Shown here: piece by piece, positions 3,959 to 61,000 of the stretch
How positions within the stretch are numbered: the stretch's first letter is position 1
How the letters are laid out: the number at the start of each line of letters is the position of its first letter
Position numbers and translations under genes: made by a program
Notes under the pieces: generated by a model
Databases searched by the model: none
What the model was told of the DNA's origin: nothing
The model's input: only the letters and a program-made list of their open reading frames with translations
Assembly: GCF_018446385.1 (NCBI RefSeq)
Contig: NC_056001.1
Coordinates: 7,893,600 to 7,957,599, forward strand
Length of the DNA stretch: 64,000 nt
Direction: 5' to 3'
Source: Zingiber officinale
Lineage: Eukaryota > Streptophyta > Magnoliopsida > Zingiberales > Zingiberaceae

Positions 3959-4941
3959 TATTGGAGGATCGATGGCCGGCTTGAAGGGGGGTTGGATAGA
4001 CGGCGCCCCCAAATCGATCGCTTTCTATGTATTTGTTAGTTGCACAGCGGAATACAAATAATACAAACACAAATATGAAAGCTAAATACAAATATAAAGA
4101 ACAAGAAAGAGCAAGCAAACCAACACGCGCCGATTTACGTGGTTCGGAGATAAAACTTCTACTCCACGGCGTGTCCGTAAGGTGGACGATCCCTATCCGT
4201 CGGTGGATTACTCCCCGGAAGACCTCCGGCTAGCTCAAACCTCCTTGTGGGTGGAGAAACCTCACCACAAACTCACCAAGACTTCTTGGACACAAGGGAA
4301 ACTCTTGGGCACTTGTAGACTACTAATTAGACCTTAACCAAGTCTAATTTCGTCACCTTGGCCGGCCATCCCAAGCTCCTTCTTATAGAGCTTGGAGCAA
4401 ATCAACATCCTGATTTGCCCGTTACCAGTCGACTAGTGCCAACCCAACGGCTATGCTACAGTGCATCAGTCGACTGGTCCATGCACTAGTCGACTGCTAC
4501 AGTAACTGCTACAGTGCCGCTACAGTGCCGCTACAGTAAAATCCTAAAACTAGGATTTTACTCCGAGTACAATCTCTCATGCACTCGTACCCTTACGACT
4601 CACTTGATACTTCCTTTGCAGCTTTGACCTCTTGCCTTCAAGTCTACTTCCTTTGGCTCTCGTCACTCGGATGCATTCAAGCCCGCGGCTCGTCCTCAAT
4701 GTCATCCTTCGCGTATGCCTCGAAGTCGCTTCCCTCGGCCCTTGTCCTTACTGCCTTGTCCACGGTCCCTCGGATACTCCATCTTTCACCGGACCCGAAG
4801 CCGTCAACCTGAGTCTCATGTGTATCCTGCAGTCCTGCACAACTCAAGTACACATATCAAATAACAGAGTGAACCTAACTTAAACTCTTTGCCCAAACAC
4901 CAAAATACATGGTCCCGCAGACCATTGGGATGGCTCCAACA
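3959..4941 (-). repeat. 5' LTR of the gag-only element
   Basis: Partner of 749-1753 in the same orientation. It carries three AGTCGACT cores, fewer than the 3' copy, because a block around the first palindrome pair is shorter here. Confidence 0.8.
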
Positions 4942-23209: not shown

Positions 23210-23974
23210 TTTACTCAAGACTACAAGGAGTTCAGTGTGCGTTGTTGTAATCTTGTGTTTCACGGTTATATCAACATGGACTCATTTTCTTTTCCCGCTC
23301 GCTAATTATTTTGGTATTTTAAAAATATGGCTCTGTAGGAATTCAACCGTAGACAAGATTTGCAGGGACTTTAAAAATGAATTATCGTTTTTTAAGAGAA
23401 CAAATAACTTCTAATGGTCACTGTTAGTTTTTGGGCTTTTGTTTTATGGAATTTTAATATATAAAAGAAGAGCAAAAGTATAATAAAATTATTACTCACA
23501 AATTATGCGAGACTTCTTAATCTTCTCTATATTCCTTTTCCTTTCTTGAGAAAAGGAGGAAGGAATGCATTTAAATCTCTGAGATTAAAAAATATTCTCC
23601 AGAAATTTAACTCTTCTAGTAAAAGATTATTACACTTGTTTTTGGGTGTTAGATTTTCTAATGGATAATTAAAGTATTTAAGGTTTGAGTCTTGATGCAA
23701 CATGTATGGAATTTTTTCTTTCAATTGGGAAGTGGACCTAATTTCAATTGAGAAGCGCTTTTCAATTCGGTAAATTTTTTTTATAGGATTAGATCGATCA
23801 CCTTTATGATTAATCAGTTTGATTATTAGGGACGGAATTTGTTCCGAGAGCATGTTCATCGAAAATTAATCCATATTATTATATTATAAGAAATCTGCGA
23901 CCCTACTCTTCAATTATTATAGTGGTAAAAAAGCACAAAAAGAGGAGTTTTTAATTCTTCAATTGAATAAAAAG
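23210..23974. other. Intergenic, 3' UTR of the GTPase gene then no gene seen
   Basis: The first 200 bases are probably 3' UTR. The remainder is AT-rich. A 110-residue minus-strand open frame (23527-23859) has no recognisable motif and is not supported. Confidence 0.4.
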
Positions 23975-24047
23975 TGGAGATGCGGGGTATCGAACCCCGT
24001 ACCTCTCGCATGCAAAGCGAGCGCTCTACCATGTGAGCTACATCCCC
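23975..24047 (-). tRNA. tRNA-Ala (anticodon UGC)
   Basis: The minus strand folds as a 73-nt tRNA. Acceptor GGGGATG pairs with CATCTCC, discriminator A; the D arm is TAGCTCACATGGTAGA; the anticodon stem CTCGC/GCGAG holds loop TTTGCAT (anticodon TGC); the T arm is CGGGGTTCGATACCCCG. There is no intron and no encoded CCA. The sequence is the nuclear cytosolic type, unlike plastid trnA-UGC, which differs in the anticodon and T arms. Confidence 0.95.
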
Positions 24048-25068: not shown

Positions 25069-27542
25069 TTACATCCCTTCATTTTTGCTAGAATTAACCA
25101 ACTCTAGATCAACATAAAGTGGATTTGCTTCTAGGAATTGTTCCCAGAAAGGATCATTTATACTTGGAAGTTTGTCATCTTCATTCAAGGTATCCATACC
25201 AATATCAGAAGGGAACTTTCCAGCTTCAACAACAACCAGATCACATTCATGATTGATGTTTACGTAATTGCTCTTTGCCTGGGGTATTGAATAACTTAAA
25301 TTTTGAGTAACATTAGCTTCCCCAATTGGTATCCTACCTTGCATTGCGGAAACTTGTGCGGCAAAAGGATCAGAATGGTAGAGAGCAATGGCCTCCGATA
25401 TTCCAGGTTCCAGATTTGTTTTTGCCATCTCAGCTGGTGTAATCATGGCCTCAGAAGATTGAATCTCTGATGGAGCAGGTGATGAAAGAATCATTGAATG
25501 TTCTGTGGGAGCAGGAGAGCAAGAAACACTAGATGTTGAAGGGACCTCAGATAGAGTAACTCTGGAGTTCCTCAAAGTTTCACAATCTAAGGTTTCCACG
25601 GAGGAATGGATGTCATCGACCAAAGTGTTCCTAGATTCACTGACAGATTCCAGCCTGGGAGTTGTGCCATACTTTAGAATCTGCATCATCATTGCTTTAG
25701 CTGCTTTATTTATCAACAGCTTGTATTTGATAATCTGACCTTCATGCGATGAGTTTTCAACCTTAGTTCTATCCAGATTAGGATATCGACGTTTCTTATT
25801 AACCCCAGCTATCCGTTGACTGCTGTCATTTTGTTGCACGAACTGGGATAGGAAACCAGGATTCTGCATAGCTTTTGCCAAGAATGACATCATCTGCTGC
25901 TGGTGATGTTCCATGCCTTGAAGACGTTGCACTAAGGTCTTCAAATGATGATCAGTGGATTGCTGCTGCTGTCTAAGCCTATCCAGTTCTTGCATTAGGA
26001 CATTTTTATCCCTCTTAAGCCTCTCAATCTCCTTCACCAATCCAAACTTACCTAACTCGACACATGCTGCCCCAGTAGCGTTTTGTGTTTGTAACTCCTG
26101 AGGTTGGTTCTGTGTATGTGTAGTTTTTCTCCTGTTGATGGTCTTCAACAGATGTTTCTGGCCTCTTAAGAACCCCTCATTTGCAAATTCCCATTGATCA
26201 GGATCAACCTTTCTAAAACCCTGTTTAACCAGTTAGAACATAAGCAGATTCAAGATTCCTCCCCACTCAAAAAGAATAACTGCATATCAAACACCACTGA
26301 AATTTTTAAAAAATTTAAAATATCTGCTAATTTGATAATAATGCATAATGGAGACAAGATTCTAGCATTTAACTGTCATTTAAACATTGCTAGAACCTTC
26401 AAGTTAAGTATTAAGATCATTTATGCACATCAATTAACATAACAGCAAGAAAGTTAATTGAAGTGCCTAAGGAGTATTCAAATGAAAAATCTTTTATGAA
26501 CATCAAGTAAGTTTGTTATTTGTTGGAACCAAACTTGGAATTGTCCATACCTTGTAAGCAAATTCTTAGATATAGCTCTCATAGATAATCAGGACACAAG
26601 CTAACTTGAATAACTTGAAAACCTTCAAACAGCATGCAAAAAGATGTTGAGCAAGTGAAGCATAACAATGAAATAACCAAAAGCTCCAAGACGAAATGAC
26701 AAAAGGTATTTGTTTGTTATCATTTCGAGCCTGAATTATTTTTTCTAATAACAAATACCACATGTCCATTTGATGTGAACATCAACAAGTCAAATATCTA
26801 GAGTAAAAGCTTCTTGATGTACCACAAAAGAGCAGCTAGGTTGATCTTAGAAATGCATATTAATTTGAAGAAATATATTCCATAAATTACACCTATGAAA
26901 GTGGCTGTTCTAAAACCCTAGATGACAGATTGTAGGACCAAGGAACCTACATCATGCTTGTGCAAACTAGGATTGTACCACTGGACAATTGTGTCTGTTG
27001 CTTACTCCGGCTGCAAATGGTCTTAAACCCTGGCTTACAGATAAAGGATGTCTCACCATCTAAGTTTCCATCCAAACATATTGATCGGACGGATTCCCAT
27101 GCTCACCCGACCTACTAATCCCGACTTCCAACTTTGGAATTAATAGTATTTCTAAATCCAATTTGTTTGTGTCTATCTCTGTTAGATGACCAACCTCACT
27201 GCAAGTCTCTTCTGGCTAAAATTAACACTTCGATCAGACACTCCAGAAGCACGGAAGACAGAGCTTAAAGAAGCTTACATATGTATTGAGCTGCCTAACA
27301 AAGCTGGAGAAATTGTCGTGCTTGAAGTACTTGGGGAGGAGGTTCCTCGCGAACTCGGGCGGATTCCAAACGACGAAGTTGTTGTTCGCATCTCCCCACG
27401 AGACGATAGAGTTGGTAGAGAGGTCATCCACCATCTCATACGTCTTGCTGAGGAACGGCGGTGGCGCGCCGCTGACTAGGTTCGCATTAACGGTGGCTGC
27501 CGTCGGCGCAGCCTCTCCACCGGCGTTCTTCGCCGCAACCAT
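25069..27542 (-). CDS. HSFA1: Class A1 heat stress transcription factor
   Basis: Two exons, 27279-27542 and 25069-26220, give 471 residues. The intron (26221-27278) lies at the conserved HSF position inside the DNA-binding domain, between QLNTY and GFRKVDPD. The winged helix-turn-helix domain spans about residues 24-117, with recognition helix sequence [11 protein letters not shown]. The HR-A/B oligomerisation coiled coil (about 147-205) has the longer spacing of class A. NKKRRYP near 230 is a likely nuclear signal. NDPFWEQFL near residue 443 is an AHA activation motif, and the Leu-rich end (YVDLELV) may help export. HSFA1 proteins are master regulators that trimerise and bind nGAAn arrays to start the heat response. 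A GA-rich 5' leader lies at 27630-27655. No damage was seen. Assignment to A1 rather than another class A member rests on the AHA and linker. Confidence 0.92.
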
Positions 27543-28269
27543 TCTCTCCCGATATCGGAAGCAGACAAAGGCCGCGCGTTAGGGTTCGGGTAACCGTAAT
27601 TCGATCAGGAGAAGAGTGAAGAAAGGATCCACAGAAAGAGAGAAAGAGAGAGATGGTGGCCGAAGTGGCAACTGGCAAAGGAGTTTTTCGTTCGGTGGGT
27701 TTTGGCTTCTTCTATTCTGTCGCATAAAATCGGAAAAAGTTTCGAATTAATTCGATTCGACTAAAGAATAATAATAAGGAAAATATTTGTCCGGTAACTG
27801 ATACTGTTTATTTACAAAGGAAATTTGACCCGCTATGTTTACTTGGAAAGATAAAATATGACCCCGTGGGTCATCCGAGACTGTATGGGACGGGAGTTGC
27901 TGTAATGAGATCATCGGGTCGAAACTTAGTGGCAGTAGGGGAATAAATCTCCTATCCCTGTATCTCACCCGGTCCGTTCCGTTAGTTCGGGTGCTGTGAT
28001 TTATCTCTTTCATGATGGCCGTGGGTCCGGTCGGTGGAGGCCCTGCTGTAATTGGAAAGATAAAATATAAAACAAGGTGATGTTTTTGTTTACTTGGAAA
28101 TTTGACACCACGCTTGCCCTTCAACGAGACCAGTGGCCGAACTGCTTCCACAACACGAGGTTCCAGTCTATCCTCTCCGTGCGCGCTCCTCCATCCACAA
28201 CCAGACCTCCCTTTTCTTGATCCTTTATCCCCATCTCCCACCCATGCGTCAACTCCAACCGTCGCCCAA
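27543..28269. promoter_or_regulatory. Shared divergent promoter region of HSFA1 and ENH1
   Basis: The two start codons face away from each other across 727 bases. The HSF side has a GA-rich leader. The centre holds a dispersed repeat copy (27905-28045). I did not find a convincing heat shock element. Whether one promoter serves both genes is unknown. Confidence 0.5.
27905..28045 (+). repeat. Dispersed repeat, copy 2
   Basis: Second copy of the 7918-8060 repeat, here in the intergenic space between the divergent HSF and ENH1 genes. The alignment is by eye and imperfect. Confidence 0.55.
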
Positions 28270-36264: not shown

Positions 36265-38450
36265 AATTCTATTTGCTACTCATGTCAAGTCATATTCTGT
36301 TGACTTCATAAAATTCTTGAAACTCCATTGAGGTAAATTCTCCTCCTCGATCAGAACACATAACTTTGATCTCAAGACCGCTCTCCTTTTCTATAGTAAC
36401 TTAAAATTTCTTGAATATGCCGAAGACCTCCGATTTTTTGCTTTAAGAAGTATACCCAAGTTTTTCTAGAAAAGTCATCTATGAAAAGAATGAAATAATT
36501 ACTCTTACCAAGTGAACTTGGCTTTATCGAATCGTAAACATCTGTGTGTATAAGTTCAAGCGGCTTTTGAGCTCTTGAACTTGACTCTTTTGGAAAACTT
36601 TTTCTAAATTGCTTCCCATGTAGACATGCTTCATATAATTGATTAGGATGTTTGATGCAAGGTAGTCCTCTCACTATCTCCTTCTTTGAAAGCAATTCTA
36701 GTCCTCCAAAATTGAGATGCCTAAATCCAAGATGTCATAGCCAAGTGATGTCTTTATAACAAGCTTTGAGACAATTAACAACATCATTTTGAATATTAAG
36801 CAAGAACATTCTATTTCTTGACATAAGCACCTTAGTAATTAATCAACCAATATCATCTTTCAAGATAAACATATTATCTTTTAGATGAATATCATATCTT
36901 TTTTCTAAGAGTTGTCCTAAGCTCAAAATGTTACTCTTCATATTTGGCACAAAGAATACATTTGAGATAAATTCATGTTTTCCATTCTTCAAACGAATAA
37001 GAATGTTATCTTTGCCTTTCACCTCGATCTTTGATTCATCCCCGAAGGATACATTACCACCAACTGATTCATCAAGCTCTACGAACATGTTTATTTTTCC
37101 ACACATATGATTGCTTGCACCAGTGTCGAGATACCAGATTGTATCTTCACCTTTTTCATTATCTTTATATGCTAGCAGTAGGGTGTTATCTTCTTCGTTC
37201 TTTTCTTTCATATAGTTTGCTCTTTCATATACTTTATTCTTGGGTGATCTACATTCTTTAGCATAATGCCCAAATTGTCACAATTGTAGCACTTAACTTG
37301 AGATTTATCGTACCTCGAATTTGTGTACCCTCTTTCACATCCTCTTGTTGAACGTTCTCCTCTTTCATTGTTGTTGTTGGAAACTCATCCTTGCTCATTA
37401 GGACAGCCTCGTCCATATCCACGACCTCTTCCACGTTGACTTCTATTGTTACTGAAGCTTTCATCTTTCTTTGTTGGTTGAAGAGTCATCTTTAAGAGTT
37501 ATTGAGTAATTTCTTCATTTATCTTCTTCTTTTCTTCATGGGCTTGTAATAAATCCAAGAGTTGCTCTATCATTATGGCTTGTAGATCCTTGGTCTCTTC
37601 GATGATGGTTGTAATGCTATCGAATTTTGAATCCAATGATCGAAGAATTTTCTCAATGATAATTACTTCTTCTAGTTTCTCACCATTTCTCTTTAGTTGA
37701 TTAGAAATGGTAGAGACTCTAGAAAAATAATCAGATACCAACTCACCTTCTTTCATATGAAGAGCATCAAATTGACTTCTTAATGTCTGAAGTCATACTT
37801 TTTTACCTTTTCTTCTCCTTGATATGAGACTTGGAGATTTTCCCATGCTTTTTTTTTCTCAAAACCATCCTCATCTAAAGCTTGATAAATGAGGAAGAGA
37901 GCCTTCTTGTCTCTCTTTCTTAAATCTCTCAGACTGTCTTTTTCAGTCTGAGATAGCGCCAAGTCATCATGCGGCTCAATGTACTTTTTTCTATAACCTT
38001 CCAAACATCATGAGCTCCAAGAAGTGTCTTTATCTTGATACTCCAATTATCATAATTGCTCGCCTTGAGTACTGGAACTTGGAAGGGAGTCATACCTCCA
38101 TTAGCCATGACTCTGATACAACTTTGTTGGAAAAAAGAATTATAAGAGAAAAATGCACTCTACGTGAAAGAGGAGGAGAATAAAACAAAGAACTCAACTT
38201 GCTTCATTCATTGGAAAAAGTATATATTTATAGGCTTATTGGATAAACACTAATCTCAAATACATTGAATCTAGACCTTTTTTATTTTTCTTTATTCTAT
38301 CTCCACGAAACTCTTATTCTTATCAAGATTGTCACCTCATCAAATTCTATCTCTATCCTATCATGAACTCTCAACAAGAATTGTCACCTCATCATTCTAT
38401 CTATATCCATAATATTTTATCTCTATCAAAATCATGTTTAATTTCCAATA
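36265..38450 (-). mobile_element. 5' part of a Copia retrotransposon fossil (minus strand)
   Basis: Read on the minus strand: a 326-base LTR (38125-38450), a primer site TTGTATCAGAGTC, gag beginning in an MANGG-like sequence with the UBN2-type region, a protease/DTGASNHMCG region, GAG-pre-integrase and the integrase core (IHTDVYDSIKP, FIDDFSRKTWVYFLK). The match stops at about 36.27 kb. The same LTR family occurs at 47351-47675 in the opposite orientation. The element is broken in several places. Confidence 0.8.
38125..38450 (-). repeat. 5' LTR of the rearranged Copia fossil
   Basis: TATTGGAAAT...CCAACA on the minus strand; collinear with 47351-47675, differing at roughly 20 positions by eye. 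Its outer flank reads ATTTC on the minus strand. Confidence 0.85.
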
Positions 38451-45132: not shown

Positions 45133-47675
45133 CGAGTATTCACCTCATGTTGCTCTGCATTACATGCTAAATGGAGTAGCAAATAGAAAGAATCGAACCA
45201 TCCTTGACATGACAAGGAGCATTCTCAAAAGTAGGAGGCTACCAAAGGAACTTTTGGCAGAAGTTGTTGCATGTGTAGTATACTTATCCAATCGATCACC
45301 GACAAGGAGTGTGTGTGGCAAGACACTATAAGAAGCATAGAGCGGAAAGAAGCCTGGGATTTCTCATCTAAGAGTTTTTGGGAGTATAGCCCACATTCAT
45401 GTACCTGATGAAGCAAGAAGCAAATTGGATGATAAAAGTAAGAAGTTTATTTTTATTGGCTGTGATACTAACTCAAAAGGGTATAAGTTATACAATCCAA
45501 ATACTAGGAAGACAATCATCAGTCGGGATATTGTATTTATTGAAGAAGAAGAATGGAATTGGGAATCTCAAAATGAAGATTACAACTTCTTCCTATACTT
45601 TGAAGAAGAAGATGTTTGGTTGGAGCAAACAATAGAAGATCCTACTACTCCATTAATAACACCAACATCAAGTACTCAAGGAAATTCATCTGCATCAACT
45701 TCAAGTGAAAATTCAAGTGAAAGAGTACCACGCTTTAGAAGTTTATGGGACCTTTACGAGGTAACTGAAAATCAAGATAATATTACTCTATTTTGTCTCT
45801 TTGCTAATTGTAAACCTATAGATTTCCAAGAAGCTATAAAGAGCAAAAAGTGAAAAGATGTGATGGATGAAGAAATCAATGCGATCAAGAAGAATGGTAC
45901 ATGAGAGTTAACTCCACTTCCTGAAGGACATAAAGCGATTGGTGTGAAGTGGGTGTACAAAATAAAGAATAATGTCAAAGGAGAAGTTGAAGGATATAAA
46001 TCAAGATTGGTGACAAAAGGCTACGGTCAAAGTTCTGACATTGACTATGATGAGGTATTCGCTCCCGTTGCTTGATTAGAAACTGTCAGACTAATCATTT
46101 CTTTAGCAGCCCAAAATAAGTGGAGAATACATCAAATGGATGTAAAATCTGCTTTTTTTAAATGGAATTCTTGAAGAAGAAGTCTATATTCGGCCGCCAT
46201 CAGGTTATGAAGTCAAAGGACAAGAAGACAAAGTTCTAAAATTAAAGAGGGCTTTCTACCGGCTAAAGCAAGCACCAAGGGCATGGAATAGCTGGATAGA
46301 CAAGTACTTGCAAGAGAAAGGCTTTATCAAATGTCCTTATGAACATGCACTTTACATTCAGAGTAAGGATAAAGATATTTTGATTGTATGCCTATATGTC
46401 GATGACTTGATCTTCACAAGAAGTAATCCAAGTATGTTTGGAGAATTCAAAGAAGCAATGACTAAGGAGTTTAAGATGATTGATATTGGGCTCATGACAT
46501 ACTATTTGGGTATCGAAGTGAACCAAAGGGAAGATAGAATCTTCATCTCACAAGCAGGTTATGCGAGAGAGATATTAAAAAAGTTCAAGATGGATAACAA
46601 TAAGCCCATAAATACCCCAGTAGAATGTGGAGTCAAGATATCAAAGTATGATGAAGGAGAAAAAGTTGATCCAACATTTATCAAGAGCTGGGTTCGAAGT
46701 TTACGATACTTGACGTGCACAAGACCTGATATCCTTTATGCTGTTGGACTTGTTAGCCGCTACATGAAAAATCCAACTACCACCTGCCTTAAGATCGCTA
46801 AGAGAATTTTGCGTTATATCAAAGGTACGATAGATTTTGGATTGCTTTATTCAACATCTAACTAGTTCAAACTTGAAGGATATAGCAACAGTGATTGGGG
46901 TGGAGATATGGATGATAGAAAGAGTACTACGGGATTTGTGTTCTTTATGGGAGATACAACTTTCACTTGGATGTCGAAGACATAACCTATTGTCACACTT
47001 TCTACTTGTGAAGCGGAGTACATGGTCGCGACCTCGTGTGTTTGCCATGCTATTTGGCTCAAAATTTATTGAATGAGCTGAGTTTACCACAAGAAGAGGC
47101 AACCAAGATTCGAGCTGATAACAAGTCTGCAATAGCACTAGCAAAGAATCCAGTTTTTCATGATAGAAGCAAACACATCGATACGCGCTATCACTATATT
47201 AGAGAGTGCATTACAAAGAAAAAAGATGTAAGTGGAATATATAAAGTCTCAAGATCAAGTTGTTGATATTTTTACCAAGCCACTCAAATTCGAAAACTTC
47301 ATCAAGAAGCGATATTTGTTTGGAGTCACAAAATCAAGTTTAAGAAGGGGTGTTGGAAATTAAACTTGATTTTGATAAAGATAAAATATTATGGATAGAG
47401 ATAAATGATGAGGTGGCAATTCTTGATGAGAGTTCGTGATACGATAGAGATATAATTTGATGAGGTGACAATCTTGATAAGAATAAGAGTTTCGTGGAGA
47501 TAGAATAAAGAAAGATAAAAAGGGTCTAGATTTAATGTATTTGAGATTAGTGTTTATCCAATAAACTTATAAATATATACTTTTTCCAATGAATGAAGCA
47601 AGTTAAGTTCTTTGTTTTATTCTCCTCCTCTTCCACGTAGAGTGTATTTTTCTCCCATAATTCTTTTTTCCAACA
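45133..47675 (+). mobile_element. 3' part of a Copia retrotransposon fossil (plus strand)
   Basis: Begins in the C-terminal part of integrase (NGVANRKNRTILDMTRS), then reverse transcriptase (CLYVDDLIFT), RNase H ([23 protein letters not shown]), a purine tract and a 325-base LTR (47351-47675). Its LTR is the same family as 38125-38450, and it carries those element parts that the minus-strand piece lacks. It is broken in several places. Confidence 0.8.
47351..47675 (+). repeat. 3' LTR of the rearranged Copia fossil
   Basis: TGTTGGAAATTAAAC...TTTTTTCCAACA, followed by ATTTC, the same five bases that flank the inverted partner LTR. Confidence 0.88.
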
Positions 47676-48213
47676 ATTTCTGCTAACGCTAATGTTGGAT
47701 GCATTTGATTCTTCCACTTGTATTTCCCTTGTTGAAATCTAGTACCCAGGGATTTGATAGTAGAAGAGATACTTTTCTTAGGACTATAAGCTCTAGGACC
47801 ATCCTTGATAACAACTAGCATTAGCTTAGTTTACTCGGTAGTAAACTCATATTATGTTGTATCTATGGTGTTCAAAATTTCTGATCCTGTAGTTAACAGG
47901 AGACAACTAAGTTAGTTACTAAATTCTGATGGTTGGATACTGTAGATAACTGAATACCTGGTGTTGGGTTGCAGTTGAGATTTCAAGAGGTGGAGATGAA
48001 GGATACATAAGAAATGGAGTGAGTGCATGATGAATTTTGGCTTTGTTTAAGTTTGTGAACTATATATTTGCAGTTCAAAACCTCTGATTCTAGTACAACT
48101 CTAACTTTTGGATGCTGTAGCTATAAAGCTAGGTTGGATTTGAGCTAGAATTTCAAGATGCGGAGAAGAAGAGACTAAAAGGGCTATCTTTTTAATAAAT
48201 TTAAAAAGGTCAA
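47676..48213. other. Between retrotransposon and LINE, no gene seen
   Basis: About 540 bases of AT-rich DNA. A 72-residue minus-strand frame (47603-47821) overlaps the LTR and is not supported. Confidence 0.35.
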
Positions 48214-51200
48214 AGGGCAACAACAACAACAACCAAGCCTTTTCCCACTAGGTGGGGGCGGCTGTATAAATCCTTTTACGCCATTGAGCTCTATCTCCTA
48301 TTATATCATCATCTATATTTAAATAAATTTTATCTTGTTTTATTGTTGCTAACCAAGTCTTTTTTAGTCTTCCTCTTCCTCGTTTGATATGCATGTTTAT
48401 CATAGTTTCACATCACCTAACTGAAGCATTTATTGGCCATCTAAGTACATGTTCGTACCATCTTAAACGTGTCTCTCGGAGTTTTTCCTCAATAGATGCA
48501 ACTCCGACTTTCTCTCTAATGCTCTCATTTCTTATTTTGCCCATCCTTGTATATCCACACATCCACCTTAACATCCTCATCTCTGCAACTCTCATCTTCT
48601 GCTCATGTGCTCGAGTCATAGCCCTACATTCAGCTCCATATAACATAACAGGTCTAACTGCGATTTTATAAAACTTACCTTTAAGTTTAAGAGGTACTTT
48701 ACGGTCACATAAAACACTCGACGCTCTCCTCCATTTCACCCATCCTGCTTATATTTTATGTAAGACATCTCTCTCAATCCCTCCATCATTTTGCAAAAAT
48801 GATCCTAAATATTTAAATCTCTCGGTTCCGGGCAACTCGTCCTCTCCTATCTTAACAATTGTTTCATTACTTCTAATATTGCTAAACTTAAATTCCATAT
48901 ATTCTGTCTTTAATCTACTAAGCTTAAAACCTTTCCCTTCTAGTGTTTCCCTTCAAGATTCTAGTTTAGCATTTACTCCTTCATGTGTCTCATCTACTAA
49001 AATAATATCATCTGCAAACAACATGTACCATGGTACTGTGTCATGAATGTGCGCAGTGAGTTCATCCATAATTAGTGTAAAAAGATAGGGACTTAGAGCT
49101 GATCCTTGATGTACCCCTATCTTTATTGGAAATGCTTTAGTTACTCCGCTTGAAGTCTTTACTCTGGTCGTTACATCCTCATACATATCTTTAATTAGTT
49201 TAATATATGTTACGCTAACACCTCTCTTTTCTAAAATTCTCCATATAATTTCTCTTGGGACTCTATCATAAGCTTTTTCTAAATCAATGAATACCATGTG
49301 TAGATCTTATTTTTGCTCCCGATATTTTTCAATTAATTGTCTAAGAAAATGTATAGCTTCTATTATCGACCTTCCAAGCATGAACCCAAATTGATTTTCT
49401 GTCACTGTGGTCTCCTTCCTTAATCTTTTTTCTATTACTTTTTCCCAAAGTTTCATAGTATGACTCATTAGTTTAAGACCCCTATAGTTTACACAATTTG
49501 TACGTCACCCTTGTTCTTATATAAGGGAACTAGAGTACTTATCCTCCATTGATCAGGCATTTTTTTCGTTTTCAATATCATGTTAAATAATTTTATAAGT
49601 TATTCAATACTTTGTTTTCCTAAACACTTCCATACCTCTATCGGAATATCATCTGGTCCAACAGCTTTTCCATTGTGCATTTCATTTAAAGTTTGTTTTA
49701 CTTCTGAAGTTTGAATTCTACGATAAAAATTAAAATTTCTATGCTCATTTGACCTAATTAAAGTACCTAAGTTAAGTTGGTCACCTAAACCTCATTAAAA
49801 AGTTGATGAAAATACCTCTTCCACCGCTCTTTTATTTCTCCATCATTTACTAATACCCTATTACATTCATCTTTAATACATTTTATTTGGCTAAGATCTC
49901 TTGTTTTCCTTTCTCTCATTTAGCTATTCTATAAATGTCTCTTTCCCCTTCTTTTGTATCCAATTTTTGATATAATCGTTCAAAAGTTTCATTTTTTGCT
50001 TCACGCACTACTTTCTTAGCTTCTTTCTTGGCTATTGTATATTTTTTTAAGTTTTCCTCGTTCTTACAAATATATAATTCCTTATAAGTTATTCGTTTTT
50101 CCTTCACTTTCTCTTGTACTTTCTCATTCCACCATCAAGATTCTTTACTTAGTGGTGCATGTCCCTTTGACTCACCGAGTGCACTCTTACTACTATTTTC
50201 AACTTTGATACCATCTTATCCCATGTTGTATTAGAGTCATCGTATATTTCACCTAATGCTTGTACTTCTACCTTCTCCTTAAATATATTTTGCTTCCCAT
50301 TCTTTAACTTCCACCACTTAATTCTAGGAATTGTATATATTTTCTTTCTATTGATACTATGTTTGAGGCGTATATCCAACACTAATATCCTATGTTGGGT
50401 AGTTAAGCTTTCTCCAGGGATGACTTTGCAATCTTTACAAATCTTTCTATCCTTCTTCCTAACCATAAGAAAGTCAATTTGTGATTTATTATTCCCACTT
50501 TTGAATGTGACTAAGTGTTCTTCTCTTTTCTTAAAAAACGTATTAGCTAATATAAGGTCATATGCTATCGCAAAATCTAATATAGTTTTCCCTTCCTCAT
50601 TCCTCGTTCCAAACCCATAACTCCCATGTACTCTCTCATATTCCTCATTTTTTACTTCAACATGCCCATTTAAATCACCTCCTATTAAAATCATTTCATT
50701 TGGTGGAATATTTTGTAATATTTCATCTAAGTCCTCCCAAAACCTTGATTTGGTAGTTTCATCTAATCCTATTTGTGGTGCATATACGCTAATTATGTTC
50801 ATAGTTTCTTTCACCACTATTATCTTAGGGCTATAATTCTATCCCTTTTTCTAACTACTCCTACAGCTTCATCGTTTAACAAATTATCTACAATAATACC
50901 ACTCCATTTCTCGCTTTACTCTTTCCAGTGTACCATAACTTAAAACCCGAGTTCTCTATCATCTTTGCCTTCTCGCCTGTCCATTTTGTCTCTTGTACAC
51001 ACAAAATACTAATTTTTCTCCTAATCATCATATCTACTACCTTCATTGATTTACCAGTGAGAATTCCTATGTTTCATGTTCCAAATCTTAGATTATTAGT
51101 TTTCCTATCATATTTATTTTTATCCAACGTATGGTGTGAGAACTCTTGCCTATTTAACACTACACCCAAGTTCTCATGGAGATGTAGCGGTCCTTGCTGA

Positions 51201-51450
51201 GACGTTACAGTCGGACCCTGTAACGCGAACTCTTGCATATTTAGCACTACACCCGAGTTCTGGAGATGTAGCGGTCCTTGCCGAGACGTTACAGTCGGAC
51301 CCTGCAACGCGTTCCTTCCGGGGAACAACCTAGCATTAGCACAATAGTTTAATGGATTCATTCATTGAATATTTGTCATAGTTTGACGCTGGCTGACAAC
51401 TTAACGCAACCCTCCTTCTTTATCCGAGCTTGGGGCCGGCCATAACCGGT
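48214..51450 (-). mobile_element. Nearly full-length decayed RTE-clade LINE
   Basis: Minus strand, 5' end near 51450 and 3' end at the (TTG)n tail (48214-48231 reads CAACAACAACAACAAC on plus). From 5' to 3' it has a 5' leader with a tandem duplication, an endonuclease (50817-50149: ISVYAPQ, GGDLNGHV, IDFLMVR), a linker (50107-49916), reverse transcriptase (49297-48953: [31 protein letters not shown]) and a C-terminal region (48739-48413: YGAECRAMTRAHEQKMR, MLRWMCGYTR). The reading frame is split into at least four pieces by stops and shifts, so it is dead. It is antisense to the CYCLOPS remnant and ends at that gene's first exon. Confidence 0.88.
51125..51310 (-). repeat. Tandem duplication in the LINE 5' leader
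   Basis: Two units of about 85-90 bases, each with GCGGTCCTTGC(C/T)GAGACGTTA, CAGTCGGACCCTG and ACTCTTGC(A/C)TATTTA. Leader repeats of this sort often carry promoter activity in LINEs (inference). Confidence 0.8.
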
Positions 51451-54400
51451 CGTCATGGGCGGAGTTTTCCAGACATGCTTAGAAGCTCAACTAAGGAGAT
51501 TCTGAGTTCTTTTATCGATAATCCAATTGGGAGCTGTGCGCCAAACATGGAGATGCTAGGATACAGGACTGCATTGCAAATCTGTAGAGAAGACAGTGAG
51601 GAGCTCTTTACCGCATGGCTGATGAATGGAGAGGTCCGAATAAGGCTTAAACCTGTTCATATTTACATCTTAATGAGTTAATCTTGTTCTACTTTGATGA
51701 TGGAAAGACAATTGCCCCTTGGCTTTAAAGCACTGAAATGGACAAAGTTGTTAGGCATAAAAAAGGGTTGCAAACAATTGCTCGTGCAGCCTAACAAAAA
51801 ATTGCCGTATCATAAAAAACACACTATCTTGGTAATATAACTTTTTATCAGTGGTAGAATCAAGTATATATAGGTAATGAGTAGCCATGTTGATTTAGGA
51901 TCAAAGATGTGTGGTAATTCAATGAAGAATCGTAAGTTCAACCGACTTTGGTCTTAACTCAATATGTTGGATACAATCAGTTCAACTGATTGAATTGTGG
52001 ACATAATCTTTCCAGATAGTGATTCTATCACAAGGGTGTTCCAAAATAAAAGTGGTGTCCAGCAAAGAAAACATCATCAGCTCATTCAATGACAGTTTGT
52101 CATGAATTTCACCTGTATTGGCACCATGTAGAAACATATAGTACTCGCATGTTATGTATTATTGTAAACCATCATTGCATAGCAAAGTAATGAAGTAATC
52201 AGCTGAATTGACATAGCTAGTAATTTATGGAGTTATTTTTTGGCCACAGGAGTTTACTTCATACTTTGTCAACTTGCATCTTTGTCTGACTACTTAAGAT
52301 TTCAGTTCAAAGTGTTTAAGATAAATATTTCTCTGACTTACCTGGTTTCACACATTTGCTTGATCATTTTCTAGATTCCTGGCCGGTTTATGGATTTCCG
52401 GCTCGAACCCCCCGAAACCACTTGATTTGGGCTCAGTCCGCGCATGCATGTAGGCCCCCTTAACTTTGCTAAGCAAGGATGGAAGGGGTCCATATATAAG
52501 GCCTTCCAACCTTCTTTACTTAGCAATATGGAACTAAATACATACATATGCATTACCAAAAAAAATAACTTGAATTAAAACTCAACATAAGCATAGTCTG
52601 CGAAGGAACATTGTGAACTCTTGCACAATTACAAGGTATCTAAATTACCTTGTGGAGTAAAGCAATAGAGACAATATTCATATTGTTGAAACTTTTTCTT
52701 ATGTGCATTTTTTGTGTCATTTTTTTTTTCCGGCAGGAGGAGGTATGTTGCCATGCAAAACCAGATGCAAGCTATTATAGAGTCTCAAAATAACAGCACA
52801 ATACTAGGTGTTGCAAAAGGACCGACAATGCTTAGAAATGAATTCTGCGATGCGTCCATGGTTGAAACTGGCACTCATGTTCAGACGTTTATGTCTCTCT
52901 CCGATTCAGCTACTTCTCCTTTTGATACTCTTTCAGTGGCAGCAGTAGACCCAAATTCTTCTGCTGTCAGCATACTCAATGGCTCACTGAAAAATAAAAG
53001 GCTTTCTAGAGAAGTAACTTCCAATGAGATTTCAAATATTCAACCAGAAGTAAATCACATATGCAATCAAGGCATCCAAAATGAGATCTACTGGCCAATG
53101 AATTTCATTTGGTATCATCTATTTCAGAGCAGAATTCGATGACAAAAGTTGAGATATCGTTGGAGCCAAATACTGAAGCATTTCTTAGTCCAGTAAATCA
53201 GTTCAGAACTGGGACAGTGTCTCAAGAACCATCACAGAGTGGATCATCTACCACAGTGCTCGCCTTCTCCACTGGCTTTGATGCATGTGATGATCTTGTC
53301 AATTCAGCACAAACTAATTCCATTTGTGAGAGTACCAAAAGGCCTATAGGAGGTCAAAATTGGAATCATAAATCCGTAGGTATGTTGCAATTCTATCACT
53401 TATGTGTTTTAGAGGCTAGAGGCTTGTTCTTATTATGGTAGCAAAAAGGTGGAATCCGTCATCCCAGCGGCCCCACACAGTCGGGCTCACGACCATCTGT
53501 GAGGAAGTAAATCGGGAAGCTGTAGTTGGCCACTACGGGAGGGTTTTAAAAAATTGTCACTAAAGGCTTTGGTGATAACAATATCAAATTCTTTTTCAAC
53601 TAATATTTGTTGTAACATAATTTGAATTTCTCATATTGGTACAGTATGCGTCTAATTTGCCCCCACAAAACCTCTCATCTTTGTATCTTTTGTTGTAGAT
53701 TATGGAGAAAACATGTTACAAAACAATGTGAAGGATGACAGAAAGGTATGCGATTTTCTATGGGTGAAGTTATATCTTATTGTACTACTTGTTCATAGGC
53801 GGATTTCTGAATATCGTAACTTAATCACATAGCGTCCAATTTACTTTCACAGAAAGGAAATTTAATTCGGTTGGGATCAGTTAATTCCTCAGTAATTTCT
53901 GGTATGGTTCAGCTGATTCTCAATTTTTGCAACCTTTTTCTTGAAAAAAGTTTAATTCTTATACATTCTCTAATAGTTATCTGCAATCCACAGTCCTCCA
54001 TCGAAGGTTTGTCCATTTCAAAATACATATACCAATTTTATAGCGATGCCCCATTGACTTGCATTGGCCGCGCCTCTCAACCCTTCTTTTTTCTAGTCAT
54101 CTTGTCTAACCAGAGAAGTTATGCAGAAGACAAGGGCCATCCTACAAAGAAGCGCCTGGTCGAGCTTTCAAGGAAGTATGTTGCCAATAACTTGAACTTG
54201 TAATCATCCTTATTTTTTCACAAGTACTGAAATTGAGGTTATAATTTGCTAAAACTGAGCCCTGAGGTTCCCATTGTCTTCAAGTACTGCATATGAAGTT
54301 GATATCTCCTGTAGTCTACTGTCAATAACATTTTACTACCAGAAATTTTTAAATTTTGTTTAATCTCATCATTCAGAATGGCAAGGCAAAAGAGAGAAGT

Positions 54401-54504
54401 TTGGCACCTGCTTTGCCGTCAGATATGCAAGCAGTTCTTAAGCGCTGCGAAACGCTTGAGAAGGAAGTTAGATCGCTGAAACTTAACCTCTCATTTATGA
54501 ATAG
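51440..54504 (+). pseudogene. CYCLOPS: CYCLOPS/IPD3 symbiosis transcription factor, decayed copy
   Basis: Six exon remnants match CYCLOPS in order: about 51450-51631 (GRSFPDMLRSS...SFIDNPIGSCAPNMEMLGYR, then REDSEELFTAWLMNGE), 52737-53379 (RRRYVAMQ...EPSQSGSSTTV, TGFDACDD), 53699-53745 (ENMLQNNVKDDRK), 53853-53901 (KGNLIRLGS), 54127-54175 (EDKGHPTKKRLVELSRK) and 54377-54504 (AKERSLAPALPSDMQ, then LKRCETLEKEVRSLKLNLSF). CYCLOPS is a nuclear CCaMK target that activates RAM1 and NIN in mycorrhiza and nodulation. Here no in-frame start ATG remains; the exon between 51631 and 52737, which should hold the MTRSRSSEL phosphosite, and the last coiled-coil exon were not found; the frame shifts near 53.09 kb and again at 54.38 kb; and the nuclear signal KKRRVERSRK is KKRLVELSRK. 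Most splice sites survive, so decay looks recent. Confidence 0.88.
51632..52736. other. Space where a CYCLOPS exon is expected but absent
   Basis: No sequence resembling the ISSEL...LLLAKAWF...MTRSRSSELR exon was seen on either strand. A repeat-like block (52370-52560) with TCCATATATAAGGCC sits here. Deletion or replacement is likely. Confidence 0.6.
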
Positions 54505-54879
54505 GTATGTAAGTAGGATTCTTTCTTTTATAGTTGTCTAGATTAAGTCAAACTCTTTAGTTCTGTTATTACTAGTAAATCATTTTTTAGTTAATAAAAG
54601 TTTGCGTTCTATGCCATGTGAATTGCAACTTAATTAATCCTTTAAGAACTTTGTTCATTTTAATTGTGTATTATAATGATATGTTCAGGTCAAAATTTTT
54701 ATGATTTTACCCTTAAATTTTACCTAAACGATGTTATGTCAATGGAAATATCTTATATCCTTTTAAACTCATGATTTTTTTCATATCTTTCCAATATGAG
54801 ACTTTAATTGCATCCCAATAATTCTCCTCTCAAACGAAGGATCATAATTACTCTCGAAGTTTGGGTCTCTCTGCAAGTA

Positions 54880-55400
54880 TTAGGTTATTCTTGACTTGCT
54901 CCGGACCTTCCCCGTAAGTATTCGATCATCCTGATCTGCTTCGGGTCTCTCCATGAGCATTCGATCATCCTAACCTACTCCGAGCCTCCCCGCGAGCATC
55001 CAGTCACCTTGACCTGTTACGGGCATTCCTACAAGCATTCAATTACCTTGACCTACTTCGGGTCTCCCTACGAGTATTCGGTTACTTTGACCTGCTTCGG
55101 ACCTCCCTACGAGTATTCGGTTACCTTGACCTGCGTCGGACCTCTTCACGAGCATTTGATCACCCTGACTTACTCTGGACCTTTTCCGGAAGTATTCGGT
55201 AACCTTGACTTGCTCCTGGCCTCTCGAAGAGCATCCCGTCACCTTGACCTACTCTGGCCTCCCTACGAACATTCGATCACCTTGACTTGCTCCGGACCTC
55301 CCCATGAGTATCCGATCATCCTGACTTGTTCCGGGGCCTCCTCGCAAACATCCGGTCAACCTGACATGCTCCAGGCCTACTCTCAACTTCAAGGTCACCC
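54880..55400. repeat. About 45-bp minisatellite
   Basis: About eleven degenerate units of the form CGAGCATTCGATCACC TTGACCTGCTCCGGACCTCCC. The unit length is near a multiple of three, so an open frame of repeated SVTLTCFGPPYEY runs through it; this is not evidence of a gene. It ends in CATGACTGGGATACCATTTATTAG. Confidence 0.85.
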
Positions 55401-56149
55401 CACATGACATCTGATCTGTGCCATGACTGGGATACCATTTATTAGAACTGAAAGATGTTTATATATTTATATAATAATATAATATTATTCACTTTGTATC
55501 TAAACCCTCGTGACTTTATTCTTAGACTCTTTTCAAAAAAATCTTATGTGAATATTTTTTAAATATTTCATCTTTCTCATATTTGTTCAATCTAAAACTG
55601 TCCCAATAATTTTATTGTTACAAACAATGCCAGGAAAGATGCTAACTAACTGGCAGCTGGTGATTGCTTCCTTAATACTTTCACCTGCGAAAACATTTGA
55701 GTAGATTCAGTGTCAAGACCTAAATATACTTTCACTAAAGAAAAGGATTTATCTGTATTTCTGAAACTATGAAATTGGACAGCACTGATTGCTTAACTGA
55801 GTTCAGCTATAAGGTGATGTACCACCTATGAATTATATTGTCAATATGATATAATTTTTGTTATTTAATTAAATATTCATGCACAGAAACAAAAATTTTG
55901 GTATGCGCCGCCGCATGCTAAGGACTATAATGTTGTGTGACATATTATAATACGAAGGTATGAGACTTGATACCGTTAATTATTATGGCAAATAATGATA
56001 ATAATTCTTGTTATTTAATTCAATATTCGTGATTACGTTGATGCTGACCCAATGCAACTAATTGACCCGCGGACGATAAGCGACAAAAAAAACTGACGTG
56101 GAATTTTAGAAATCGACGGGGGAACCGTTTAGCTTAGAATAAGTCCGGG
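55401..56149. other. Intergenic, no gene seen
   Basis: AT-rich sequence after the minisatellite. I looked here for the missing CYCLOPS coiled-coil exon (KDSEQTKQIEEL) and did not find it. Confidence 0.45.
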
Positions 56150-58032
56150 GGAGCAACATACCAAAAGAGTGTGGGGATAAATTGGACAGCTTCCGTCCCT
56201 CGCTCGCACCTCCCCCATTTGTTCCTCCGTCGACGGCACGATTTCAGGAACGGTCTGCTGGAAGGCCGCCAGGTACCGATCTCCATCGAATTTGGTGTTG
56301 TTTGTTTATGTTAGATCTTGGTCGTCTATACTCGATTTGATTTACGGGGCAGTTGCTTGTTGATTGAAACCCTAGGGTTAATCTGGTTCGGAGGTCTGAT
56401 GGTCGTTTGAGGTTTGGAGATTTAAATTATGATTCGCTGAAGGATTAGGGTTTCGATCTTTCGGAGAATTTAGTTGATTTGAGGGGCTATCGTGTTTCGA
56501 GCGATTCGGAGTTGGTTCGATGATACCTGGTAGAGGTTGAGTTTTGAAAATAATTATCAATGGATTTGATTAGAGGGCTCGGATTTTTTTTGATTATATA
56601 GGTTATCGATGCTGAACGTCAGGTTTGCTATAAACATATGCTGATGACTTCTAAGGATATGCCCGTGCTGTTTGAATGTTTCCCGTTGCGGTCAAGTTTC
56701 TATATTTTGGATAGATTGCTAGTTCATCTGTAGTTTTCACGTTGATAATCTTAGCACCTTTTCTCTTGTACTCTTGTAAGCATGATTTTTTTTTTCATAT
56801 CAATAATGTAATACCGGTCGCATGCTTAATTTAGTGTGCCTAATTTTGTATAATTTTTTTTTGTCATGTTTCCATGATCATGTTATTTTATAATTTCCTG
56901 TGGTATCTTCTACACTAGTAATGACTCCATGATCCGTTAGAAACATAACTAATTAACAGGAACAGCTGCATATCACTTTATTCTGAAATACATGTTTGAG
57001 TTGCTCTGATTTGGCATTCAAACATATCTTTGAGGTGCATTCATGCAATTGTGTATTATTTCTTCAGCAGGGATTTTTGTGTCCGTATCTCTGATAACTA
57101 TATATATATATCACATTCTCTCCTTTTTGGTCAGGTCACACAGTGTATTCTACTGCTATAGTGATACTTGACGGATGGCGCAAGTGTACTCTTGGCTGAG
57201 TTTTATTAAGTTCCGAGTTTTGTTCCTTGATGGAGTTATTGATTGGCGACTTTCTGCTAATGGAGACTTTATTCTCACCTCTTTGATGAACTGCACATAG
57301 AATCACACATCCAATCTACAGTACCAAGAGGCTGGCGTTCCGATTTTCTTTGAAGTTGGGGTAGTGTTTGCATTGCTGCCTTATTACTGGACTTCTTGCC
57401 TTTGCATGTATGCAGCACACTTTCTATCAACAACTTTGGCATCTTCTTTTTATCTTACATGGCCACTACAGCCTTTGCGAGAGCCTATTTGAAAGTCATG
57501 AAACCACTGCATGAAAATTATACTGCTGGTATGTTTTTCTCTGCTACTGTATTCTATTTTCATAATAGGGTAATCTCAACTAATTAAATTGTGAAATTTT
57601 CTAATTTTTGCCTTGTTCTCTCAGGTGTCTTTCACTAGCTCTTTCATTGCCCTGTCCCCTTTTCTTCTATCGACTTTTCTCTGTTTCACTTACTGCTTCG
57701 ACTTTTATCAAGAATGGAGTCAATAAACAATCGATAAGTTGATCAAATTTCACCATAAACTTTGGTGCACTTCTCCAGTGTGCTGGTTGATACTATTTAT
57801 TCGAAGTATCTGTTTATTGTCCTTGAGACTGCAGTGGGACAACAATCTCTCGTACATTTTGGCCTATATGTTAGAATGTTTTTGGATCTTCTGTGTCAGT
57901 TTGAACTCTCAACAAGTATCTCAATGCTCTTAGAAGCTCTTCCTGAGAAGTGCTTGTCTGTAGTGGGAACACACTCATTGTTGCACACGCATCCTTCTTT
58001 TGACTAGGACAATAAAAAGTGCACAGTCAAGG
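56150..58032 (+). promoter_or_regulatory. Promoter and 5' UTR region of the CDKF-4 gene
   Basis: A GC-richer block at about 56190-56272 ends in GCCGCCAG/GTACCG, a good first-exon end for a non-coding 5' exon, followed by long AT-rich introns. The exact transcription start and the number of leader exons cannot be fixed. Short frames inside are not supported. Confidence 0.45.
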
Positions 58033-61000
58033 ATGGATAGGTGAGTTCCACATTATAGTGTTTTTCTAGGCTAGCAATATTGAATTGTATTTACTTGGAC
58101 TTTTTAATCCTACAGGTACAAATTAATCAAGGAAGTTGGAGATGGAACTTTTGGGACTGTTTGGCGGGCAATAAACAAGCAAAGTGGTGAAGTGGTGTGT
58201 TGTCCTTTGAGAATTAAGAGGCTTCTATGTTTTCTTTTAATTTGCATTATAATGCTACACTGTTGAGAATAAAAACATATTACTTTATTGTGCCATTCAA
58301 ATCTCTTGCACATTATTCTTTAGCCCACTTTATATGGTCAAACCGTACAACTTTATATGTTCTATTTATGTTGTTTCTGTATTTCTAGAGTCATGCAGCT
58401 GAACAATTTACTGTGGTTTAATGTTTAATCAATCAAAATTAGTTGTCATCTTTGACTACATTACTAAATGTTATTGGAAAAATGGTTATTGTTCTGACCA
58501 TTTGCATCCACAGGTTGCTATTAAGAAGTTGAAAAGAAAGTATTACTCATGGGAGGAGTGTTTGAATCTACGGGAAGTAAAGGTAATTTTGTGTAGTATA
58601 TTTATGCAATATAAATGGTCCTCTTTAGTTTTCTCATCAAGATGCATGATTTCCAGTCTTTGCGAAGGTTAAATCATCCAAACATTGTCAAACTCAAGGA
58701 GGTGATTAGAGATAGTGATATGTTGCACCTAGTATTTGAGTACATGGTATGATTATTCTCTATCTTTGCTTGTCAGAGTTTACCTACTAGGGTCTGAATA
58801 AAGTTTGCTTCAAACAGGACTGCAACCTCTACCAGCTTATGAAAGAAAGGGGCAAACCCTTTTCAAATGTTGAAATTCGAAATTGGTGTTTTCAAATCTT
58901 TCGAGCATTAGCTTACATGCACCAGCATGGTTATTTTCATCGTGACCTAAAGCCTGGTACCGCTCACATTTTCTATATTTTATGAAGGTTGAATTTGTTG
59001 CCATAGAAAAGCTTGTATGCCACCATATATTTGAGGTCCTTTTGGATAATAGTGAAAGATATGCATAATATTGTTTAATTTGCAAGTCAATCATGCATGG
59101 ATTAGTATTTTCATTCACATATTTCAGATTTTTAATTTTTTATGCTAATTAAGCAGTACCAAGCTAATTTGAAATTCGATAATAGATATGAAATACTCAT
59201 AATTCATTACAAAAGATTATATTATCTTTGAAAGATTAGCTTTGTTGAAGTTAGCATTCTGTTAAACTAGATTATGACCTTTGCAGAGAACTTATTGGTA
59301 ATTAAGAACCTTGTGAAGATAGCAGATTTTGGCCTTGCTCGTGAAGTTCATTCGAAGCCACCATTCACAGAATATGTTTCAACACGCTGGTAAGCATGAT
59401 TGTGACATGCACTTGTGATCTTATGTTTTTTTATTTTCACGTGCTTTGGTTGTGGTGATGTCATAGGTATCGAGCTCCAGAAGTTTTGCTTCAATCTTCT
59501 ATTTACAGTTCTGCAGTTGGTTAGTGAACTAAATCCAGTATATACATCTAATCAACTTTGTTTTTATATGAAATTATTATATTATTCAAATGTCAGATAT
59601 GTGGGCAATGGGAGCTATCATGGCTGAACTTTTCACACTTCGTCCCCTTTTTCCTGGATTGAGGTACTCGTCAACTTGGTACATTTTCTTTGTTAACTAT
59701 AAAACTTATAATTTCTCCTATCCTATAACTATAAAGGGATATTGTAGACCCTTTGTTGACTAGCTATTTGCGCATTGTTTATTTTGCTAAATGACGGATG
59801 CTTTAGGTGAATTTGAACTTTCTGTAGAGGTTAAGTAGTTTTAAGTGTCCAGCTAAATTGATATAGCCTTTAATTTCATTGATTGATGTCTCAACCCCTC
59901 TACCAGCTAATCTATTTGGACTATAATTTTCAGTGAGGCAGATGAGTTATTCAAAATCTGCAATGTTATTGGATCTCCAAATAGGTACTCTTGGTCAGAA
60001 GGACTACAACTTGCAGAAGCAATGAAATATCAGTTCCCACAGGTGTGTTTGTTGTTCTGTAAATTTATTTTTCCCCACTCCAAATACCTTCTGTACAACT
60101 GAATTATTAGGATCACTGGGTTATCATTCTTTTGAGAATTTTTTTAACATTTGTCAATTGGTTTGCACATGGGAGTTGCAAACTTGAGATACTAACATAA
60201 CCTATCTTTGGCGGCAGCATGGCTCTTGTCTTGTTGCTTCTTTGATGATCCTAGGTTTGGTGTCCAGACATGGAAAACATTTGTTTTATGTTTTGCTTTC
60301 TTTGCGTTTTGACTCGAATTGAGAGGAACATTGCTTATATCTATGAAAGCTTGAATAAATTTTGATGTCTTATTTTGACTGCCTTAGTTTGCTGGTATCC
60401 CTCTTTCCGTGCTGATTCCAACAGCCAGCAAGGATGCTATTGACCTTATCTCGGTAAGTCACAAAATGAATAATTCTGCTCTCACTATTGGCAGTTTGAG
60501 ATACGTTGACTTTTTTGGGTCTTCTTGTATTCTAATATCTTCACTTACTTGGCAGTCACTTTGTTCGTGGGACTCCACTAAAAGACCCTCTGCATTGGAG
60601 GTTCTTCACCATTCTTTCTTCCAGGTAATTTATTGCATAGTGATCCTTGTTAAATATTATTTGTCGAACAGAATACTCTGAGAAGCAATAAGATTTATTA
60701 TGTTCATGTTCAACTACTTGCAGTCTTGCTTTCACATACCACCATCACCTCAGTTGAAACCAGAGGGAGTGTACAAAACACCTTCATCAGGTTAAGTCTC
60801 AGATGATTTTATTATTATTAAATTCAATTATTCTCTAATCTTGTAATATTAAGCAGCCATTAAAGGTGCGTTGGTGTCAAAATGTGTTAGAGACCCCTCT
60901 CTTGGGGTTTTATCCAGTACAAGGCTTGCAAGAAACTTTCCGACCCATAGTTCAAATGAGTTTTCAGGGATAGGTGGCCTTCATTGTCCTATCTATTTAT

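Follow-up and report, generated by a model that had tools for sequence, protein, structure and literature searches.

A decayed CYCLOPS/IPD3 copy with kept introns and uneven divergence along its exons

The 64-kb window, by which we mean the whole stretch of DNA analysed, contains the remains of CYCLOPS, a gene required for hosting mycorrhizal fungi. Queried by tblastn with provisional reference sequences of the Lotus and rice CYCLOPS/IPD3 proteins, the window returned CYCLOPS/IPD3 pieces that are collinear on the + strand from 51,457 to 54,504, with a LINE retrotransposon on one side and a protein kinase gene on the other (Table 1). The Lotus query as typed has 512 residues, which we believe to be a few short of the true length, and carries serines at positions 50 and 154. 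S50 and S154 are CCaMK phosphorylation sites of CYCLOPS, according to PMC5865340.

Table 1. Features of the CYCLOPS remnant and its two neighbours, with positions counted in the window.
Feature	Position	Strand	Remarks
RTE-type LINE retrotransposon, degraded	48218..51454	-	Upper end adjoins CYCLOPS exon 1, placed by eye
CYCLOPS exon 1	51457..51633	+	Without in-frame start codon; Lotus S50 serine and GT donor kept
CYCLOPS exon 2, probable 8-base stub	52375..52382	+	Behind AG acceptor; frame gives I-P-G
CYCLOPS exon 3	52737..53379	+	Frameshift within about 53,041–53,114
CYCLOPS exon 4	53699..53745	+	tblastn, splice ends
CYCLOPS exon 5	53853..53901	+	tblastn (rice only), splice ends
CYCLOPS exon 6	54127..54175	+	Basic stretch with two Arg-to-Leu changes
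CYCLOPS exon 7	54377..54504	+	Coiled-coil start; frame lost near beginning; GT donor kept
CDKF-4/MAK-type protein kinase gene	58114..60624	+	Matched exons open; synteny marker with rice

With the rice query, four blocks scored between 49.3 and 70.9 bits, namely exon 1 (64.7), two blocks of exon 3 in different frames (49.3 and 68.9) and exon 7 (70.9). All four lie above the maximum of a control with 40 shuffled rice CYCLOPS proteins, whose best scores reached at most 28.9 bits (mean 23.9), hence chance similarity is ruled out for these blocks. The short exons 4, 5 and 6 (24.6, 20.4 and 28.5 bits) individually fall inside the shuffle range and were accepted on the support of collinearity, splice sites and a reading phase that was judged by eye. 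The rice query outscored the Lotus query in five of the six blocks found with both, exon 7 scoring higher with Lotus, and exon 5 was matched by the rice query only; on these bit scores the plant looks like a monocot. No second CYCLOPS copy was found in the 64-kb window, where all other matches were at or below 24 bits with either query. Searches of Pfam and PDB returned no CYCLOPS family and no CYCLOPS structure, and a literature search by peptide strings gave no match.

A first-pass annotation had named this gene CYCLOPS and described six exon remnants, in the right order and with mostly good splice sites, between 51,440 and 54,504. Its identification and exon order are borne out by the collinear matches with the Lotus and rice references, and the end of its span is correct, but the start belongs at 51,457. 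Splice dinucleotides are kept at 12 of 12 ends examined (the exon 1 donor, the exon 2 acceptor and both ends of exons 3–7), although we set these ends so that they fit the protein, a procedure biased towards intact dinucleotides. In the matching frames, exon 1 has no stops in 59 codons and exons 3–7 have none in 278 aligned codons, a count that leaves out the surroundings of the frameshift in exon 3. Exon 1 retains a serine at the Lotus S50 position, with R three residues before it. Exon 2 probably survives as an 8-base stub, as an AG acceptor at 52,373–52,374 is followed by 8 bases, noticed by eye, from which the protein reads on like the rice reference (GE-IPG), a match so short that it is only suggestive.

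No in-frame start codon was found for exon 1, and the ATG at the LINE junction is out of frame with it. The rest of exon 2, including the region of Lotus S154, was not found between 51,621 and 52,760 with either query (at most 16.5 bits, taken as noise), nor were the last exon and the remainder of the C-terminal coiled-coil, the start of which is carried by exon 7, found in six frames of 54,501–56,300 (at most 13.5 bits, both queries). The reading frame shifts once in exon 3 (about 53,041–53,114) and once near the start of exon 7, and the remnant has no uninterrupted reading frame that begins with a start codon. The first-pass annotation was therefore right that the start codon, the last exon and frame continuity are gone, and to this we add the LINE, absent from that account, which stands at the place of the start codon. 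It had also reported the loss of one middle exon, which holds for nearly all of exon 2 but not for the probable stub at 52,375. The frameshifts in exons 3 and 7 could be assembly errors, and for assembly quality the neighbouring kinase gene serves as a partial control. Judged by its sequence, the copy as assembled is dead, a pseudogene of the CYCLOPS/IPD3 family and no working member of it.

Two further stretches were noted within and beyond the remnant. Directly behind the exon 2 stub, 52,384–52,580 appears by eye unlike its surroundings and has a TATA-like motif; this may be a small mobile element, with no repeat or ends found. Scanned for inverted repeats as signs of a transposon, the gap left by exon 2 gave four short pairs and no clear element. 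In the region expected to hold the final CYCLOPS exon, 54,890–55,371 is occupied by a minisatellite whose 39-base units are about 70% similar to one another.

The LINE adjoining exon 1 retains a recognisable reverse transcriptase (RVT_1, 1.1e-17, 48,953–49,306) and an endonuclease above the Pfam cut-off (Exo_endo_phos_2, 3.3e-07, 50,149–50,838). Its 3′ tail at 48,218 is a CAA repeat, and we take such a simple-repeat tail to be the mark of the RTE clade. A related copy is present at 13,824–14,820, with 75% identity over 48,289–49,282. Open pieces of the LINE span 48,251–51,361, whilst the assignment of 51,362–51,454 to it, made by eye, is presumptive. We recognised no target-site duplication, the longest word common to the surroundings of both ends being 6 bases and not placeable as a duplication. 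The LINE was perhaps inserted into exon 1, its upper end being placed by eye. The LINE may predate the decay of exons 3–7, as one of its frames (48,251–49,504) has four stops between five open pieces, compared with none in the 278 CYCLOPS codons, although the counts are too small to settle the order.

The kinase gene, the first one downstream of the remnant, matched a provisional rice CDKF-4 sequence with 491.5 summed bits, all nine matches being ungapped and stop-free, and residues 241–261 and everything after 284 were left uncovered. With a provisional MHK-type query two of nine matches were gapped, one of them with stops and seemingly running into an intron. A query with an upstream peptide of the kinase gave nothing. 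We take Os06g0116100, LOC_Os06g02550 and CDKF-4 to be one and the same rice gene. Rice OsCYCLOPS/OsIPD3 is Os06g0115600 (PMC4626465) and OsIPD3 is LOC_Os06g02520 (PMC5104908), while the protein kinase LOC_Os06g02550 has been placed in one group with Arabidopsis At4g19110 and At5g45430 on the basis of a conserved upstream peptide (PMC2075485). By these identifiers the rice kinase lies three locus numbers from rice CYCLOPS, and Os06g0116100, listed as a conserved-uORF transcript in PMC6722916, fits the kinase grouped by its upstream peptide. The introns kept in the remnant and its kinase neighbour together indicate the ancestral CYCLOPS locus or a duplicate thereof. A processed retrocopy is ruled out by the presence of introns with GT-AG ends.

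Elsewhere in the window, a heat shock factor gene is present on the - strand at 25,069–27,578, with an HSF DNA-binding domain at 27,234–27,578 (1.3e-20) and a weak second half in a 387-codon open frame at 25,069–26,232 (0.027, below cut-off). An SPFH/Band 7 domain exon of a stomatin-like gene is found at 11,082–11,420, and a tRNA-Ala (TGC) gene at 23,974–24,047 on the - strand. Repeats include a direct repeat of about 1 kb (751–1,753 and 3,961–4,941, 91% identical) and an inverted pair of 325-base repeats (38,124–38,448 and 47,353–47,676, 94% identical), perhaps LTRs that belong to two members of a single Copia-type family; an RVT_2 domain occurs at 46,146–46,865.

To describe the decay of the remnant, amino-acid columns of the copy were compared with the rice and Lotus references, and all results on rates and dates lean on these provisional sequences. 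Where rice and Lotus agree, the copy is changed in 23 of 51 columns in exon 1. Exon 3 has 15 of 37 such columns changed in its first half and 7 of 26 in its second, and exons 4, 5, 6 and 7 have 2 of 9, 0 of 5, 3 of 14 and 3 of 34, respectively. Changes unique to rice number 1 in exon 1, 14 and 7 in the halves of exon 3, and 0, 3, 0 and 3 in exons 4–7; those unique to Lotus total 36, with 2 in exon 1. Copy-unique and rice-unique changes hence stand at 23 vs 1 in exon 1 and at 30 vs 27 in exons 3–7 (sign test for the latter, p = 0.79), and these ratios differ (Fisher p = 0.000095). The same comparison against Lotus gives 23:2 and 30:34 (p = 0.000077). By shared columns, exon 1 is more changed than exons 4–7 (8 of 62, p = 0.00024) and than exons 3–7 (30 of 125, p = 0.007). 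Exon 3 (22 of 63) is itself more changed than exons 4–7 (p = 0.006) and does not differ from exon 1, either as a whole (p = 0.34) or in its first half (p = 0.83). We read the changes in exon 3 as ordinary because it varies freely between rice and Lotus too. Exon 3 is too variable to support the claim that exon 1 went first, which leans instead on the rate comparison with rice and Lotus. Taken at sequence level, this comparison suggests that exon 1 lost constraint before the remaining exons.

A simple neutral simulation was run forward from the copy's own codons with substitutions only. For 45% of its amino acids to change, exon 1 needs about 0.2–0.3 substitutions per site: the simulated 95% ranges contain 0.45 at 0.2, 0.25 and 0.3 per site and miss it at both 0.15 and 0.35. 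The probability that 278 codons stay stop-free while all 12 splice sites remain intact falls from 0.04 at 0.06 per site to 0.006 at 0.1, 0.0001 at 0.2 and 0.0000 at 0.25. A single neutral phase does not fit both observations, hence exon 1 would either have been released first or have changed fast while still coding. Plant DNA accumulates about 5e-9 substitutions per site per year, and at this rate 0.06 per site corresponds to about 12 million years. The later exons therefore probably died more recently than about 12 million years ago. The fairly recent death proposed on first inspection fits exons 4–7 better than exon 1, given the 23 of 51 and 8 of 62 shared columns changed.

An altered nuclear signal had also been proposed, which is true in part. 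In exon 6, two arginines common to the rice and Lotus references have become leucines, a change unique to this copy. The basic cluster at the start of Lotus exon 5, however, is also absent from the rice reference. Of the first 9 residues of exon 5 the copy shares 6 with rice and 4 with Lotus, and of all 15 columns it shares 7 with rice and 8 with Lotus.

We put at about two in three the probability that this is a non-processed CYCLOPS/IPD3 pseudogene, at the ancestral position or its duplicate, which was once one of two copies and whose 5′ end was released first. A genome or segment duplication would have left two CYCLOPS copies, this gene being one of them. The 5′ end, with the start codon and exon 1, would then have been the first part freed from constraint, perhaps when the LINE was inserted, and the later exons would have been released afterwards, with only slight decay since. 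No complete CYCLOPS protein would be made here, and should the plant still be a mycorrhizal host, a second copy elsewhere would supply the function. Most monocots host arbuscular mycorrhizal fungi, and a redundant duplicate is favoured because of this prevalence and of the early release of exon 1; in our judgement it is a better bet than loss of the symbiosis.

The pseudogene may instead be unitary, in which case the sole CYCLOPS has died and its death marks the loss of arbuscular mycorrhiza in the plant's lineage, a reading we consider unlikely. The kinase neighbour, like the one near rice CYCLOPS, and the lack of a second CYCLOPS within the 64-kb window are both in keeping with it, and the prevalence of these fungi among monocots counts against it. 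The apparent relaxation of exon 1 before exons 4–7 decayed is also more in keeping with a redundant copy than with a sudden loss, though as an argument this is weak. Non-hosts do lose symbiosis-specific genes, as was checked at syntenic blocks in Brassicales according to PMC4102449. If there is no other copy in the plant, the remnant would tie symbiosis loss to a mechanism and a time.

A third reading starts from the same unevenness. After the start codon and the N-terminal regulatory exons were lost, a putative shortened protein with the DNA-binding and coiled-coil parts could have been selected for a time before it too died. The lack of any excess over rice in exons 3–7 beside the 23 vs 1 of exon 1 is what this would produce, and at the divergence of exon 1 the stop-free exons 3–7 and 12 splice sites would be very unlikely under neutrality (0.0001 at 0.2 per site). 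PMC10874911 describes a shortened Medicago IPD3 (amino acids 254–513) as a DNA-binding domain that is constitutively active. It is just as conceivable, however, that exon 1 diverged in a fast-evolving duplicate while it still coded, and exon 3 shows as much change as exon 1 when shared columns alone are counted; moreover, the reference sequences are provisional, and we regard the shortened protein as improbable. It is similarly doubtful that a duplicate lost the calcium-kinase-regulated N-terminus which held it in check, with its putative DNA-binding half long selected before death. If true, this would be a natural experiment in CYCLOPS freed from symbiotic control.

For the redundant duplicate that we favour, as for the other readings, the value of the locus lies in a remnant that is still partly readable at its apparent original position, which makes the order of constraint loss among gene parts testable. 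No report of a CYCLOPS pseudogene in monocots was found among the matches listed, judged by titles and abstract starts. The remnant resembles CYCLOPS/IPD3 of Lotus, Medicago and rice (Os06g0115600) in its exon order, S50 motif, exon 3–7 sequence and coiled-coil start, and resembles the rice gene also in having a kinase in the neighbourhood. Unlike a working CYCLOPS/IPD3, it is without an in-frame start codon and nearly all of exon 2, its last exon was not found downstream, and it carries two frameshifts and two Arg-to-Leu changes in exon 6. Elsewhere in plants, IPD3 went undetected in two fern genomes, Azolla and Salvinia (PMC6786969), and CYCLOPS/IPD3 can exist as two redundant genes, as with the second IPD3-like gene of Medicago, IPD3L (PMC5865340). 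IPD3L is a working legume gene, however, whereas the remnant described here is a broken copy.
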